A DNA stretch of 64,000 bases from Prochlorococcus marinus str. MIT 0918. GTDB taxonomy: Bacteria; Cyanobacteriota; Cyanobacteriia; PCC-6307; Cyanobiaceae. The stretch is taken from NCBI RefSeq assembly GCF_027359415.1, contig NZ_CP114780.1, positions 372,001-436,000 on the forward strand, given 5' to 3'. The notes under the pieces are model-generated. The model had not been told where the DNA came from. It saw only the letters and a program-made list of their open reading frames with translations, and did no database searches. This document shows, in pieces, positions 51,155-58,064 of the stretch. Positions within the stretch are counted from its first letter, which is position 1. Each line of letters starts with the position of its first letter. The position numbers and the translations under genes are program-made.

Positions 51155-52216
51155 TTAATCCAATTTAATTTGAGATGTTTCAAGGTTGTCAAACAACTTG
51201 CCAATACTTCTGAAGTCAAAGCCTAAAGCTCTTAGACCATGCCAGAAGTGTCCCTGAAGATATACAAAACCAATGTAGAAGTGAACATTGGTCAACCATG
51301 CACGTCCTGTGTGGGCATCAGCTGCAAGTGATGTATCTGTATCAACCCAATATGGAGCTACCCCCAACTTGAACTGAAGAACATCACCATAAAGATCTAC
51401 TGGGTAGATAGTTGTATTGCTTGCACACCATAGGGCTGCAACAAAAGCTGTGTATGCAGCTCCAGCTAGGGATGTGGATAGAACAAATTCTGCAGAAAGG
51501 AGATCTGCTCCTTTAAATGAATTGTATTCACCATAATTCTTGGTGAGAATATGGAAAATACCACCAGCACTCATAAAGAATGCTAAGAAAGCATGTCCAC
51601 CCATAATGTCTTCCAAACTACTAATAGAAAGGAAATCAAATTGATGGTTCCAGATCATTCCAAGATCAAGGTTGTACTCAACTTGGCGAACTACACCAGC
51701 TGCTGAGTCATAAATTCCATGCCACTTAGCCCATTCAACGAATTGAATGTTTCCTGCAGCTAGGAATAAAAGATGATGGCCAAGGATGAAAGTAAGTCTG
51801 TCTGGATCATTCCAGTCAAACTTGAACTTATTCGCTCTTGATGTAGCAGGATAACTTTCTAGTTTTTCCTCATATCTAAAGGCATGAAGCATTCCGCCAC
51901 CGCCATATACACCTGAAAGGATCAGATGAAGTATGGCAACAACTAACAACTGATAGGTATCAGTGAATACACCATTAGATATCCCACCTAAACCAATTCC
52001 AGCTAGGTGAGGAAGTACAACAAGCCCTTGAGAGCCCATGGGCAAATCAGGGTTGTAACGAGCTAATTCAAAAAGGGTGTTTGCACCAGCTCCGAAGCAA
52101 ATGAGGCCCGTATGCGCAATATGCGAGGAAATGAATCTACCGGATTTGTTAGTAACAGCTCCAGCATTCGCCGCATACCATGCATAGGAAACGTTGGGGT
52201 CTCCGTAGGTCTGCAC
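51155..52216 (-). CDS. pcb: Chlorophyll a/b light-harvesting protein (Pcb/IsiA family), copy 1
   Basis: A 353-residue CP43-like antenna protein with six membrane helices that binds divinyl chlorophylls a and b around the photosystems. Diagnostic blocks are QTYGDPNVSYAWYAANAG, LPHLAGIGLGGISNG, GMLHAFRYEE, GHHLLFLAAGNIQFVEWAK, the chlorophyll-ligand histidines of LEDIMGGHAFLAFF, and NVHFYIGFVYLQGHFWHGLRA. The lumenal loop of true CP43 is absent. It starts with GTG at 52216. It differs substantially from the second pcb at 57009, so they are not recent duplicates. Confidence 0.95.
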   Translation of the reverse strand: MQTYGDPNVSYAWYAANAGAVTNKSGRFISSHIAHTGLICFGAGANTLFELARYNPDLPMGSQGLVVLPHLAGIGLGGISNGVFTDTYQLLVVAILHLILSGVYGGGGMLHAFRYEEKLESYPATSRANKFKFDWNDPDRLTFILGHHLLFLAAGNIQFVEWAKWHGIYDSAAGVVRQVEYNLDLGMIWNHQFDFLSISSLEDIMGGHAFLAFFMSAGGIFHILTKNYGEYNSFKGADLLSAEFVLSTSLAGAAYTAFVAALWCASNTTIYPVDLYGDVLQFKLGVAPYWVDTDTSLAADAHTGRAWLTNVHFYIGFVYLQGHFWHGLRALGFDFRSIGKLFDNLETSQIKLD

Positions 52217-53237: not shown

Positions 53238-53417
53238 ATGCCTTCACTTCCAGAACTAGTTCACACAACCCGCCAAGGTGGGACTGTTCATAAATATGAA
53301 TTAAGTGGAGGGAAAAGTTCATTCCTTAGGTATTTAGGTTGCTACCTAGGAACTTGTAAATTCTGCAATGATCTTGAAGAAGCTACTCAATATTTAGAAA
53401 ATACATTTGAAAAATAG
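53238..53417 (+). CDS. Small cysteine-containing protein, 59 residues
   Basis: Starts MPSLPELVHTTRQGGTVHKY; a C35-x4-C40-x2-C43 cluster follows in RYLGCYLGTCKFC, then an acidic helix. Cysteine spacing suggests a metal or disulfide site. A good clean frame in an AT-rich gap, but no known family. It is about 190 bases upstream of the cao-like gene and could be part of the same regulon. Confidence 0.6.
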   Translation: MPSLPELVHTTRQGGTVHKYELSGGKSSFLRYLGCYLGTCKFCNDLEEATQYLENTFEK

Positions 53418-53609: not shown

Positions 53610-54944
53610 ATGAACGATGAAGGAGTTGCACAATTTAAGAAGTTAAATTTGGATAATGATTCGTCCACTAATAATAATTTGTTGGAACGAAATAATCATG
53701 AGAAGTTAGTAAGCACATCTCAAAAACCTTCTAATCAACTAAAAAATGGTTTACTTGGGTGGTATGCAGTCTGTAGTACCAGAGAACTCAAAGATAACAA
53801 GCCATATTTTTTCACAATGTTCAATGAACCCCTTGTTATATACAAGGATAAAGAAAACAACTTGAGATGTATCAAAGATCTTTGTCCCCATAGAGGAGCA
53901 TCATTTATAGGAGGAGAAGTAATAGATGGAGAATTAGTATGTCCTTACCACGGTGCAAGATTTTCTTCAAAAGGTGAATGTACAAACCTAAGTAGGATAA
54001 CCTGTAACCATATAGTAGATGATAACTATGATAATTATGCTTCAAAGATTCATCTCTTCCAATACATTTGTAAAGAGGTAGGTGATTACATATATATTTA
54101 TTATACAGGAAAAGCAAAAACTAATTTAAATGACTTTGAAGTTACTGATCCTTTATATACAAGGTTCATAAATAACTATGGCTTTAATATTGACGAATAT
54201 GCTTTTGAAGAAGTTGTTGTTGATTTTAAATGTGATTGGGCAAGAATTATAGAAAATCACTTAGACATACTCCATCTATTCTGGGTACATGGAGAAACAA
54301 TACCTGATAATGAAGTTAATAGAAAAGTTATTACAAGCTTTAATCAAGAAATAACAAAAGAGAGAGACCAAATAGAAAGTAAATATAAATATAAAGATAA
54401 AACTAAAGGAGAATTTATAAGAATAAAATTCTTACCACCTGGAAGAATAGTTATATATAAAGGTGAGCCAAAAGAAGCTAGGTATATACAAGTATTGGAT
54501 CATATCCCTCTTTCTAAAAATCAAGCACGAGTAATTGTAAGACATTATAGGAAATTTATGAAGAATAAATTAATTACAGAGCTACTATTATTTAGAAAAT
54601 TACAACATAGAGTTTTTTATAAAGTTTTTACCGAAGATTATATGATTTTGAGAACTCAAACATTTAATAACCAAATGGGTTACGTAGAAAAAGATAATGT
54701 TAAATTACTTGGAGAAGATAAAATGGTTCAATATTATTGGGATTGGTTTAAAAGTTCAAATATCAAGGATAATCCATGGGAAATACACCCAATAAACTCA
54801 GATACTAATTCAGTTCATCAAGATATAGCAATGCTTTATCCGCCTGCTAATAATAAGCTTCAAAAGAAAAATACTCAGAGTATAAAAATCAATCTATTAA
54901 TTAGAATGCTTATACCAATTGGACTATTATTATTAATACTATAA
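53610..54944 (+). CDS. Rieske oxygenase, probable chlorophyllide a oxygenase (Prochlorococcus type)
   Basis: A 444-residue non-haem iron oxygenase. The Rieske [2Fe-2S] ligands are C92xH94 (CPHRGA) and C111xxH114 (CPYHGA). The mononuclear iron site is seen as D219, H222, H227 in ENHLDILHLFWVHGE. A disordered N-terminus (1-45) precedes the domain, and a hydrophobic C-terminal helix (about 426-444) likely anchors it to a membrane. This arrangement fits the CAO/PaO/Tic55 family; Prochlorococcus makes chlorophyll b with such a CAO, and the pcb neighbours support it. Other members of the family cannot be excluded. Confidence 0.7.
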   Translation: MNDEGVAQFKKLNLDNDSSTNNNLLERNNHEKLVSTSQKPSNQLKNGLLGWYAVCSTRELKDNKPYFFTMFNEPLVIYKDKENNLRCIKDLCPHRGASFIGGEVIDGELVCPYHGARFSSKGECTNLSRITCNHIVDDNYDNYASKIHLFQYICKEVGDYIYIYYTGKAKTNLNDFEVTDPLYTRFINNYGFNIDEYAFEEVVVDFKCDWARIIENHLDILHLFWVHGETIPDNEVNRKVITSFNQEITKERDQIESKYKYKDKTKGEFIRIKFLPPGRIVIYKGEPKEARYIQVLDHIPLSKNQARVIVRHYRKFMKNKLITELLLFRKLQHRVFYKVFTEDYMILRTQTFNNQMGYVEKDNVKLLGEDKMVQYYWDWFKSSNIKDNPWEIHPINSDTNSVHQDIAMLYPPANNKLQKKNTQSIKINLLIRMLIPIGLLLLIL

Positions 54945-55045
54945 TGAATAATTATCAAAGACCTCCATGGTTAAACTGGCTCTATCTTTTTATATTTTTA
55001 TTTTCTAGTTGGCAACTCTTTACAATGTGGAGTAGTAGGATTTGA
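54944..55045 (+). CDS. Membrane microprotein, 33 residues, coupled to the Rieske oxygenase
   Basis: The ATG shares its A with the stop of the oxygenase (TAATG), and its stop overlaps the TTG start of the following ABC ATPase (TTGA). It reads MNNYQRPPWLNWLYLFIFLF, then SSWQLFTMWSSRI: one membrane helix with five tryptophans overall. Too short to be a permease. Both overlaps indicate translational coupling, so it is likely a real subunit. No known family. Confidence 0.6.
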   Translation: MNNYQRPPWLNWLYLFIFLFSSWQLFTMWSSRI

Positions 55046-55842
55046 TAGAAAATGAATGGCTGAATGTAAAAAATTTAGTTCTTTATTTTAAAAACAAAAA
55101 GATACTTGACCAAATAACATTCAACTTATCAATAAAACAAAATACAGTTATTATTGGACCCAATGGTTCTGGGAAATCTACACTTATAAGAACTATTACT
55201 AAACACATTTATCCTAAATATCAAATAGATTCACATATTAAAATATTTGGAGAAGATAATATAAATATATGGAAATTACGTACTCACATTGGATTTTTAA
55301 TAACAGAGATAGATTCTAGAATTAAAAATACTACTCTAGTAAAAGATGTTATTCTTTCCGGGTTCCAGGGTACATATGGACTAGTCAACTATAAACTTAT
55401 AACAGCTGCTCATATAAAAGCATTAAATAATTTGTTATGTAAAATGAATCTTAATGGTATTAGTGATTATTATTCAGATTTATCCGATGGCCAAAAAAGA
55501 AGAGTATTAATTGCTAGAGCAATTGTAAACAAACCTAAGGTATTAATACTTGACGAGCCTACTAGTATGTTAGATATAAAATGTACATATGAACTTCTAG
55601 ATAGTCTAAGTAAATTAGTTAAAGATGGTATTACATTGTTATATGTAACTAATAATATTCAAAATATAATACTAGAAACAGAAAGAGTTATTTTGATTAA
55701 AAAAGGAAAAATAATTGCAGATGGTGACCCAAATAAGATATTAACTTCAAAGAACCTTAGTTATTTATATGAATATGACCTTAATGTAGATTTCTTAAAT
55801 GGATTCTGGCGAATATCCCCCTCAAAAGAATTTTCAAATTAA
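55042..55842 (+). CDS. ABC transporter ATP-binding protein
   Basis: A 266-residue ATPase. Walker A is GPNGSGKST (39-47), the signature LSDGQKRR is near 150, and Walker B VLILDEPTS follows. The signature has Asp where Gly is usual (LSDGQ for LSGGQ). It starts from a TTG that overlaps the microprotein stop. There is no permease gene beside it, so it is an orphan ATPase or one that works with a distant permease. Third gene of the cao-type operon. Confidence 0.82.
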   Translation: MIENEWLNVKNLVLYFKNKKILDQITFNLSIKQNTVIIGPNGSGKSTLIRTITKHIYPKYQIDSHIKIFGEDNINIWKLRTHIGFLITEIDSRIKNTTLVKDVILSGFQGTYGLVNYKLITAAHIKALNNLLCKMNLNGISDYYSDLSDGQKRRVLIARAIVNKPKVLILDEPTSMLDIKCTYELLDSLSKLVKDGITLLYVTNNIQNIILETERVILIKKGKIIADGDPNKILTSKNLSYLYEYDLNVDFLNGFWRISPSKEFSN

Positions 55843-56037
55843 TATAATGATAATAATAGCCAAAATAACTATTAAAATAAATGGTTGCTTCTTAAAATAA
55901 AACTTAGTAAAATTATGTGAATTTATAATATTACTATTTGAAATAGAAGAACAACCGCATATCGTACAAATAAGTCTGCCTCCCAATGCCCTATCTGCAA
56001 TAAGTTTATTAGAACCACATCTTGTACATATTTTCAT
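55834..56037 (-). CDS. Zinc-ribbon protein with C-terminal membrane anchor, 67 residues
   Basis: Four cysteines C4xxC7 and C24xxC27 (with a fifth at 29) form a zinc ribbon at the N-terminus, and an isoleucine-rich helix (about 51-67) ends the protein, the layout of a tail-anchored membrane protein. Convergent with the ABC ATPase, overlapping its 3' end by 9 bases. Function unknown; it could hold a partner at the thylakoid or plasma membrane. Confidence 0.7.
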   Translation of the reverse strand: MKICTRCGSNKLIADRALGGRLICTICGCSSISNSNIINSHNFTKFYFKKQPFILIVILAIIIIILI

Positions 56038-56058: not shown

Positions 56059-56784
56059 CTAAATAAAGTCTTGAAGGAATTCAATAGGAGATGACATATT
56101 CTTGGAAAATCCTAAAAGAGATTTGCTTTTATAACAATAGAGTAATTTCATTTTGGAATCAATTATGAATGTTCCAGTTCTTTGAGTAAGATACGAATGG
56201 TCAAACATATAAATATCCCATTTTGATAGCACCTCTATCATATTCAATAGTCTTAAAGAAGCCAATTCAAACGGTCTAAGTTTACCCTTACGACCAATTA
56301 GATTAAACATACTAGTTTTTAATAAAAAATTATTTGGAAAGCTTATATATTCATTTTCATCAAATATTTGTGAAGAATTTTTGTCCCCAACATAACCTCT
56401 TAATACTTCTAATAGAGTACCTGGAGAAAATACACCTAAACACATTAATATAAGATTTAGTAAGGGATTAATTGGCAATTCAAGACCACCAGATATCTCT
56501 AATCTCTTATGAAATAAATTATTTTCTACAACAATTAGATATTCTTCTGGTAATTTTGTATATTTGCAAAATCTCCTTTTAGATAGCTCAGTACCAATAC
56601 CTACTACAATAAGATTAATATTAGAATCTTTTATTTTTTTTATATAGGGTAACAAACACTGAACATATTCAAAACTATCGAAGTCTCCTAACAGACCTAA
56701 GACAACTAACAAAGTTTTTCTAGGTAAATAAGTTTTATTAAGTTCTTGTTTAAATATTTTATTTATTGAAAAATCCTTTTGCAT
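56059..56784 (-). CDS. Peroxiredoxin-like (AhpC/TSA fold) protein lacking the catalytic cysteine
   Basis: A 241-residue protein with the thioredoxin-like fold of the AhpC/TSA superfamily (PRXL2/FAM213-like). LLVVLGLLGDFDSFEYVQCLLP (residues 25-46) lies where active enzymes have a CxxC or peroxidatic cysteine; here only C43 is near. FCKYTKLPEEYLIVV and GVFSPGTLLEVLRGYVGD match the family. Probably not a standard peroxidase. Upstream and divergent from pcb copy 2. Confidence 0.65.
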   Translation of the reverse strand: MQKDFSINKIFKQELNKTYLPRKTLLVVLGLLGDFDSFEYVQCLLPYIKKIKDSNINLIVVGIGTELSKRRFCKYTKLPEEYLIVVENNLFHKRLEISGGLELPINPLLNLILMCLGVFSPGTLLEVLRGYVGDKNSSQIFDENEYISFPNNFLLKTSMFNLIGRKGKLRPFELASLRLLNMIEVLSKWDIYMFDHSYLTQRTGTFIIDSKMKLLYCYKSKSLLGFSKNMSSPIEFLQDFI

Positions 56785-57008: not shown

Positions 57009-58064
57009 GTGCAGACCTACGGGAACCCAAACGTTACCTACGCTTGGTATGCGGGCAACTCAGGGACGACGAACCGTTCAGGAAAATTCATCGCAGCTCA
57101 TGCAGCTCATGCAGGTTTGATGATGTTCTGGGCAGGAGCTTTTACTCTCTTTGAACTCGCTCGTTACGACTCATCTTTACCGATGGGTAATCAAAACCTT
57201 ATTTGCCTTCCACATCTAGCTGGTCTTGGCATTGGTGGAGTCTCAAATGGTGTTATTACAGAACCATACGGTTGTACTGTTATAGCTGTTTTACACTTGA
57301 TTTTCTCTGGTGTACTTGGTGCAGGTGGCCTTTTACACTCAATGAGATATGAAGGAGATCTAGGCAATTATCCTGAAGGTTCAAGAGCTAAAAAGTTTGA
57401 CTTTGAATGGGATGACCCAGACAGATTGACTTTTATTCTTGGTCATCACCTTATATTTCTAGGCCTTGGAAACATTCAATTTGTTGAATGGGCAAGAATT
57501 CATGGAATCTACGATGCTGCTCAAGGTGTTACTAGAACTGTTAATTACAATCTAGACCTTGGAATGATTTGGAATCACCAAGCTGACTTCTTAACAGTCA
57601 ATAGCTTGGAAGACATTATGGGTGGACATGCTTTCTTAGCTTTCTTTTTGATAATTGGTGGTGCTTTCCATATTGCTACAAGACAATATGGTCAATACAC
57701 CGAGTTCAAAGGAAAAGGGCTCCTATCAGCCGAATCAGTTCTTTCATACTCATTAGCTGGTGTGGCTTATTGCGCATTTGTTGCTGCTTTTTGGTGTGCC
57801 ACCAATACAACTATTTACCCAACAGATCTTTATGGTGAGGTACTTAGTCTTAAATTTGAATTTGCACCTTATTTTGTAGATACTGCAGATCTACCAGCAG
57901 ATGCCCATACAGCAAGAGCATGGCTTTCTAACGTTCACTTTTATTTAGGATTCTTTTTTCTTCAAGGTCATCTATGGCATGCGCTTAGAGGAATGGGATT
58001 CGACTTCAAACGAGTTGGAAAAGCCTTTGACAATATGGAAGATGTCAAGATCACTGCAGGTTAA
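57009..58064 (+). CDS. pcb: Chlorophyll a/b light-harvesting protein (Pcb/IsiA family), copy 2
   Basis: A 351-residue six-helix antenna protein. QTYGNPNVTYAWYAGNSG, LPHLAGLGIGGVSNGV, GLLHSMRYEGD, GHHLIFLGLGNIQFVEWAR, LEDIMGGHAFLAFF and NVHFYLGFFFLQGHLWHALRGM are all present. GTG start at 57009. The first 50 bases have about 57% GC (29 of 51), far above the surroundings, and closely match copy 1 at base level. It is followed by a strong terminator and the Crp-type regulator and ferritin genes; pcb genes near iron genes are iron-stress antennae in other strains, so an iron-induced role is possible (inference). Confidence 0.95.
   Translation: MQTYGNPNVTYAWYAGNSGTTNRSGKFIAAHAAHAGLMMFWAGAFTLFELARYDSSLPMGNQNLICLPHLAGLGIGGVSNGVITEPYGCTVIAVLHLIFSGVLGAGGLLHSMRYEGDLGNYPEGSRAKKFDFEWDDPDRLTFILGHHLIFLGLGNIQFVEWARIHGIYDAAQGVTRTVNYNLDLGMIWNHQADFLTVNSLEDIMGGHAFLAFFLIIGGAFHIATRQYGQYTEFKGKGLLSAESVLSYSLAGVAYCAFVAAFWCATNTTIYPTDLYGEVLSLKFEFAPYFVDTADLPADAHTARAWLSNVHFYLGFFFLQGHLWHALRGMGFDFKRVGKAFDNMEDVKITAG

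Follow-up and report, generated by a model that had tools for sequence, protein, structure and literature searches.

Organisation of the locus

The window, i.e., the whole stretch of 64,000 nucleotides analysed here (positions 372001-436000 of contig C1), belongs to a single-contig genome of 1,789,313 bases of the Prochlorococcus type. It carries three contiguous genes coding for a Rieske oxygenase, a tryptophan-rich microprotein and an ATP-binding cassette (ABC)-type ATPase (Table 1). Judged by its sequence, the oxygenase is very probably PcCAO, the Prochlorococcus chlorophyll b enzyme (CAO in the following). The 33-codon microprotein frame has one base in common with the oxygenase gene and four bases with the ATPase gene: the oxygenase stop codon overlaps the microprotein ATG (TAATG) and the microprotein stop codon overlaps the TTG initiation codon of the ATPase (TTGA). 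Both overlaps were pointed out in the first-pass annotation of this stretch and are confirmed in the sequence. The best reading of the data is that the microprotein is an unnamed core membrane protein of the picocyanobacterial family, whose main job is probably broader than chlorophyll b because it is also found in relatives that lack CAO.

Table 1. Features of the CAO locus and its surroundings (positions in the window).
Feature	Position	Strand	Description and basis
Rieske oxygenase, probable PcCAO	53610..54944	+	444 amino acids, TAA stop codon; PF00355, E 4.4e-22
Tryptophan-rich microprotein, probable single span	54944..55045	+	33 amino acids; conservation, pN/pS
Orphan ABC-type ATPase	55042..55842	+	266 amino acids, TTG start codon; PF00005, E 4.2e-25
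TAATG, CAO stop and microprotein start	54942..54946	+	1-base overlap; sequence
TTGA, microprotein stop and ATPase start	55042..55045	+	4-base overlap; sequence
Frame with CKFC motif, upstream of CAO	53238..53417	+	59 amino acids
Frame convergent with the ATPase gene	55834..56037	-	67 amino acids; ends overlap by 9 bases
AhpC-TSA_2 protein, convergent neighbour of the trio	56059..56784	-	E 4.8e-12
IsrR model match, antisense to a pcb gene	57408..57579	-	52.0 bits (equal to the gathering score)
IsrR model match, antisense to a pcb gene	51643..51814	+	42.8 bits (below the gathering score)

Conservation and selection of the microprotein

A profile of 30 relatives detected the microprotein in 130 of the 161 genomes of the picocyanobacterial family, and in 92 of the 99 with at least 90% completeness and at most 5% contamination (“good” genomes hereafter). 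Forty-two loci were examined for the alignment A1, from which 5 with weak matches only and 7 repeats (3 exact, 4 close) were dropped to leave 30 rows. The consensus is RPxW[LM]NW..L.IF..SSWQL..FW, with R, P, W, N, W, L, F and S invariant across the 30 rows. With an E-value limit of 0.05, 38 matches were obtained in a class-wide sample of 242 genomes. Of these, 29 are strong, with E-values of at most 1.1e-14, and all lie within the family; none of the 9 others, which are no better than E 0.0136, is convincing outside it.

For three sets of loci, defined by hand and by a sequence word, the microprotein frame has ratios of nonsynonymous to synonymous differences (pN/pS) of 0.14, 0.20 and 0.23, accompanied by a third-codon-position bias; the shifted frames give values of 0.75-3.1. 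When the three genes are compared, the microprotein (0.16-0.31; its row for the high-light (HL) clade uses 9 of 12 loci, the others being beyond the E-value limit) is about as constrained as CAO (0.18-0.25), with looser values for the ATPase (0.38-0.52). A chance frame is ruled out by the conservation across the family, by purifying selection confined to this frame and by the recurring junctions with the neighbouring genes. On these sequence grounds the microprotein is a real gene and, as the first-pass annotation had argued from the overlaps, it is very likely made as a protein.

The microprotein scores above the cut-off of no family in Pfam, NCBIfam or PHROGs, and NCBIfam gave no match at all. 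Searching the PDB with its profile returned chance matches only, to unrelated proteins (best E 0.82). None of these collections thus relates it to a named small subunit, be it of a photosystem, of a cytochrome complex or of another kind. A phage origin was considered and rejected, the viral contigs having given 15 pattern matches of which none was confirmed as a relative. No earlier description of the trio or of the microprotein was found in the literature, a search whose scope excluded supplementary tables (e.g., those of PMC2518516) and most subscription papers.

Gene junctions in relatives

The junctions were surveyed in 79 CAO loci, most of them found via the microprotein, of whose 242 relatives the best 80 (the named loci below) were kept; the sample leans to HL and close relatives, and we inferred the clade labels used for relatives (LLIV-like, SS120-like, etc.; LL, low-light). 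The microprotein is directly downstream in 74 of the 79, with 74 distinct microprotein DNA sequences. This count is not a linkage rate because most of the loci were found by the microprotein itself; the linkage rate is 18 of 26 good CAO genomes (see below). CAO and microprotein are spaced by -1 to 6 bp in 59 of the 74 loci (a one-base overlap in 8). At the second junction, 59 loci show an overlap of 1, 4 or 8 bases between microprotein and ATPase start, and two more have the genes 2 bp apart. Both junctions are tight in 58 loci. A flavodoxin gene (isiB) separates microprotein and ATPase in seven loci, three others have a spacer of 18-163 bp before the ATPase, and in a last three a downstream ATPase was not found, one of these being at a contig end.

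The frame and the overlaps are thus conserved among relatives, with different bases doing the overlapping. The ATPase start codon varies (GTG, TTG, ATG) while the overlap persists. MIT 9201 (L215), which we take to be of the HL clade, has a 3-bp gap at the first junction and TAGTG at the second; most members of the SS120-like group feature TAATG and the four-base overlap. The three genes are all apart in two LLIV-like genomes, are clustered with isiB in several LL-type loci and are tightly packed in the SS120-like and HL loci, a distribution that suggests that the cluster arose after LLIV had split off. In a CAO tree, whose 39 rows and labels were chosen by hand (two rows with gaps of 17 and 43 bp were labelled tight; 9 of 36 inner branches are starred), the loci with tight junctions fall into two separate groups, each well supported, and two changes are needed to explain the tight arrangement. 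It would fit either a single origin followed by later loss or two origins. For the placing of these clades, PMC11559063 describes two grades: LLVII, in which a large pcb expansion is reported, is placed between LLIV and LLII/III, and LLVIII between LLII/III and LLI.

Distribution and contexts of the three genes

CAO is present in 54 of the 161 family genomes (match at E 1e-60), including 26 of the good ones. It is carried by 57 of the 80 named loci: the titles give Prochlorococcus for 56 of these and “uncultured Synechococcaceae” for the remaining one (L177). In loci with Synechococcus or Cyanobium in the title, CAO was absent from the stretch surveyed, which reached at most 6 kb to either side of the microprotein. 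The CAO copy of the incomplete genome G006 (C1:61134-62370) is split by an in-frame stop codon, which may be a genuine defect or come from misassembly.

The microprotein occurs somewhere in all 26 good CAO genomes and adjoins CAO in 18; the eight in which it is found elsewhere comprise one genome of group g4, two LLIV-like genomes of g29 and five of g56. By subtraction, it is also present in 66 of the 73 good genomes without CAO. The ATPase was found in 105 of the 161 family genomes (70 of the good ones). The tie between oxygenase and ATPase seen in the first-pass annotation holds as far as gene neighbourhood is concerned, since the two genes are adjacent in 22 of the 24 good genomes encoding them. 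A dependence is not supported: the ATPase is present in 46 of the 73 good genomes without CAO (by subtraction) and is missing from two single-contig genomes that have CAO and microprotein, G043 and G064. In these two, a 31-row profile applied to all candidates detected no orthologue. Their best matches (E 3.4e-35 and 1.3e-34, respectively) fall where the second-best, paralogous matches of two control genomes lie (G002 and G016, with E 1.5e-108 and 1.3e-99 for the genuine copies); the best match of G043 adjoins membrane-protein genes and looks by eye like the polar-amino-acid type.

Two other Prochlorococcus contexts of the microprotein were recorded. Its gene precedes the flavodoxin gene in seven loci with CAO and, away from CAO, in one LLIV-like genome (at ~340 bp). 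In two g4 genomes it lies, also away from CAO, between two pcb antenna genes (L111, 7392-7487, and L119, 6743-6838; PF00421 was confirmed for L111 only).

The oxygenase

Two proteins with the PF00355 domain are encoded in the genome, the window oxygenase and PetC. The former is the sole Rieske oxygenase and is very probably PcCAO because there is no other candidate of this type, which supports the chlorophyll b-forming role held probable in the first-pass annotation; the strain, being Prochlorococcus, is expected to make chlorophyll b. The Rieske [2Fe-2S] motif (C-x-H ... C-x2-H) and the mononuclear iron motif (N-x2-D-x2-H-x4-H) are both found in all 19 oxygenase rows compared (from 18 genomes, one of them represented twice), the window's included. 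A structural model (mean predicted local distance difference test score (pLDDT) of 79.3) matches the fold of Rieske monooxygenases (dicamba monooxygenase 3gke, E 1.5e-16). It ends in a hydrophobic helix (residues 415-443) that is predicted to be a membrane helix. A hydrophobic C-terminus is found in most of the 19 rows, that of HNLC1 (L185) lacking it, and the oxygenases of L027 and L108 have a tail after the hydrophobic part. A phage link for P0001 was discarded: only four distant Rieske proteins were found in phages, with 22-28% identity.

The ATPase

The ATPase has a complete ABC domain with the motifs GPNGSGKST, LSDGQ and VLILDEPTS; Walker A, signature and Walker B were scored, the Q-loop column being seen and left unscored. 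The LSDGQ sequence, singled out in the first-pass annotation, is indeed present but is not special to this protein: it is a family trait, because 35 of the 37 ATPase sequences examined have LS[DE]G[QE] and none has LSGGQ. The H-loop histidine, a general feature of ABC proteins for ATP hydrolysis, is kept in 25 of the 37 sequences, including those of HL, other LL and Synechococcus-type genomes; Asn takes its place in the other 12, the window protein among them (all SS120-like or g4, one genome being counted twice). Walker A and B are intact in the window. The substitution suggests a weakened or altered hydrolysis in the group to which the window belongs.

The structural model (pLDDT 93.8) has the orphan ATPases 4hzi (E 3.8e-26, template-modelling (TM) scores 0.84/0.88, 31% identity) and 2ihy as closest folds. 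The best NCBIfam match is the ModF-like NF008186. The protein is not a ModF/PhrA equivalog because its score of 137.4 bits is under the cut-off of 459. In agreement with the first-pass annotation, no permease was recognised beside the ATPase, either in the window or in the listed loci of relatives; one encoded elsewhere in the genome is possible. In several LL-type Prochlorococcus genomes, an ABC-2 exporter of three genes, one of which codes for an ATPase of its own, is divergent from CAO (L093, 6760-9374; L099, 7979-10576; and similar loci). None is found beside CAO in the window.

A proposed helper of the photosynthetic membrane coupled to chlorophyll b synthesis

We favour, at roughly even chances, a coupled three-gene operon in which the microprotein would be a photosynthetic-membrane helper with a role wider than chlorophyll b, and the ATPase an accessory or a passenger. 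PcCAO, with its predicted C-terminal membrane helix, would be translated first. Ribosomes finishing at its TAA codon would re-start on the overlapping microprotein ATG, and a second re-start would take place at the ATPase start overlapping the microprotein stop codon. The microprotein is probably a single-span membrane protein; once inserted, presumably in the thylakoid, it might assist a chlorophyll-protein or electron-transport complex as one of its small subunits, a role favoured by the flavodoxin and pcb genes found next to it in Prochlorococcus. It would be older than its link with CAO: its gene would have been placed behind PcCAO, initially with isiB between it and the ATPase gene, the removal of isiB would have put microprotein and ATPase in contact, and genome compaction would have packed the genes tightly. 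Joint production with CAO would keep the membrane component matched to the pigment supply. The ATPase would be dispensable for chlorophyll b.

Several observations weigh against this account. The hydropathy of the window microprotein is modest (best 18-residue mean 1.28; two relatives reach 2.11 and 1.57). A PPK2 gene lies at most 420 bp from the microprotein in 15 of the 80 named loci (titles Synechococcus, Cyanobium or Synechococcales), a neighbourhood that gives no photosynthetic hint, and in the one g56 genome inspected the microprotein is found among unknown genes. Its weak resemblance to the Pfam family FixP_N, seen in 10 of the 30 members with a best E of 0.0083 that is short of the cut-off, is kept only as a hint and would equally fit a respiratory partner. 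Finally, overlapping genes are common in streamlined genomes, which pack unrelated genes, and the coupling alone is therefore no proof of a shared function.

An alternative, possible though in our view doubtful, is an operon of convenience, in which streamlining would have packed unrelated genes and the microprotein would belong to a non-photosynthetic membrane complex (e.g., of respiration, transport or polyphosphate metabolism). The PPK2 neighbourhood and the FixP_N resemblance fit it, as do the occurrence of microprotein and ATPase without CAO, the 8 of 26 good CAO genomes in which the microprotein is unlinked, the 2 of 26 in which the ATPase is absent and the flavodoxin gene interposed between the two in seven loci. 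It accounts less well for the adjacency of CAO and ATPase in 22 of 24 genomes, for very tight junctions that persist in two separate groups despite the turnover of their sequences, and for the flavodoxin and pcb genes that make up the other Prochlorococcus contexts of the microprotein. The first-pass annotation had instead envisaged a dedicated pigment complex, in which the microprotein would anchor or stabilise CAO while pigment transport or remodelling of the complex would fall to the ATPase. The conserved gene order and tight coupling, the putative membrane helix of CAO next to a microprotein that resembles a single span, and the presence of the latter in 26 of 26 good CAO genomes are what such a complex would predict. 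We nevertheless lowered its standing and regard such a complex as unlikely, in particular one obligate for chlorophyll b, because genomes without CAO can have either partner and the ATPase is dispensable, as its absence from the two single-contig CAO genomes indicates. The microprotein adjoins CAO in only 18 of 26 genomes, the trio is fully dispersed in the two LLIV-like ones, and the ATPase evolves faster and has lost its H-loop histidine in the window's group. Least probable by far is that the 33-codon frame mainly serves as a translational relay carrying ribosomes from CAO to the ATPase, with a sequence of little weight: its position and the overlaps at both ends are those of a relay, but purifying selection acts at the amino-acid level and conserved copies exist elsewhere, joined to neither gene.

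Within the favoured account, we tentatively advance a more specific proposal that is possible rather than probable: the microprotein may be an unrecognised core thylakoid subunit whose synthesis was locked to that of CAO in Prochlorococcus by overlapping genes. If true, pigment supply and a membrane complex would be produced in fixed proportion in one of the ocean's most abundant phototrophs, and the recurrent tight coupling would provide a handle on how pigment synthesis is matched to membrane assembly. A protein encoded by 92 of 99 good Prochlorococcus, Synechococcus and Cyanobium genomes passes no family cut-off; with the consensus and the positions of its gene at hand, it can be looked for directly in proteomes, ribosome profiles and cryo-electron microscopy (cryo-EM) maps that already exist.

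Neighbouring genes and regulatory sequences

Upstream of CAO, the window has a frame with a CKFC motif (Table 1) that recurs in 35 of the 57 named loci with CAO, some of whose contigs are cut; Pfam and NCBIfam gave no match for it. On the other side, the frame convergent with the ATPase gene has a weak zinc-ribbon match and a hydrophobic tail. It is kept in 55 of the 56 named loci that have CAO and ATPase, the remaining one stopping at the contig end. An AhpC-TSA_2 protein gene follows on the same strand.

Both pcb genes of the window are matched on their antisense strand by the Rfam model of IsrR, an antisense RNA that regulates isiA; the matches may only reflect coding similarity between pcb and isiA. 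No Rfam match was found on the CAO, microprotein or ATPase genes. The numbers of promoter-like (18 versus 23.1 expected) and terminator-like sites (0 versus 1.2 expected) were uninformative.

Comparison with known systems

The 33-amino-acid peptide of Yfr6 (PMC2518516, PMC1242208) resembles the microprotein in having 33 codons and in being conserved in HL and LL Prochlorococcus. It maps to positions 923780-924018 of SS120 (PMC1242208), and the CAO locus of G002, taken for SS120, is at ~806,500-808,800; the two are set apart by position and the identity of the microprotein with the Yfr6 peptide is rejected. Norf4 (31 amino acids) and HliR1 (37 amino acids), described in PMC5126843, are like the microprotein in length, in having one predicted span and in having been overlooked by older annotation. 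They are distinguished from it by distribution: according to that description Norf4 is absent from alpha-cyanobacteria and HliR1 is confined to Synechocystis, whereas the microprotein was found only in the picocyanobacterial family.

For the oxygenase, the known counterpart is PcCao, cited in PMC3441193 to Satoh and Tanaka 2006 as the Prochlorococcus-specific chlorophyll b enzyme. The likeness, drawn from this description and from the motifs, is that of a Prochlorococcus-specific Rieske oxygenase to the only one of the genome, which has both iron-binding motifs; the passages of PMC3441193 on the enzyme do not mention a coupled microprotein or ATPase. The window ATPase resembles the orphan ABC ATPases of Leptospira interrogans (4hzi) and Staphylococcus aureus (2ihy) in its fold, in its single domain and in having no recognised neighbouring permease. 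It differs from them by its position behind CAO and by the Asn found at the H-loop in its group.

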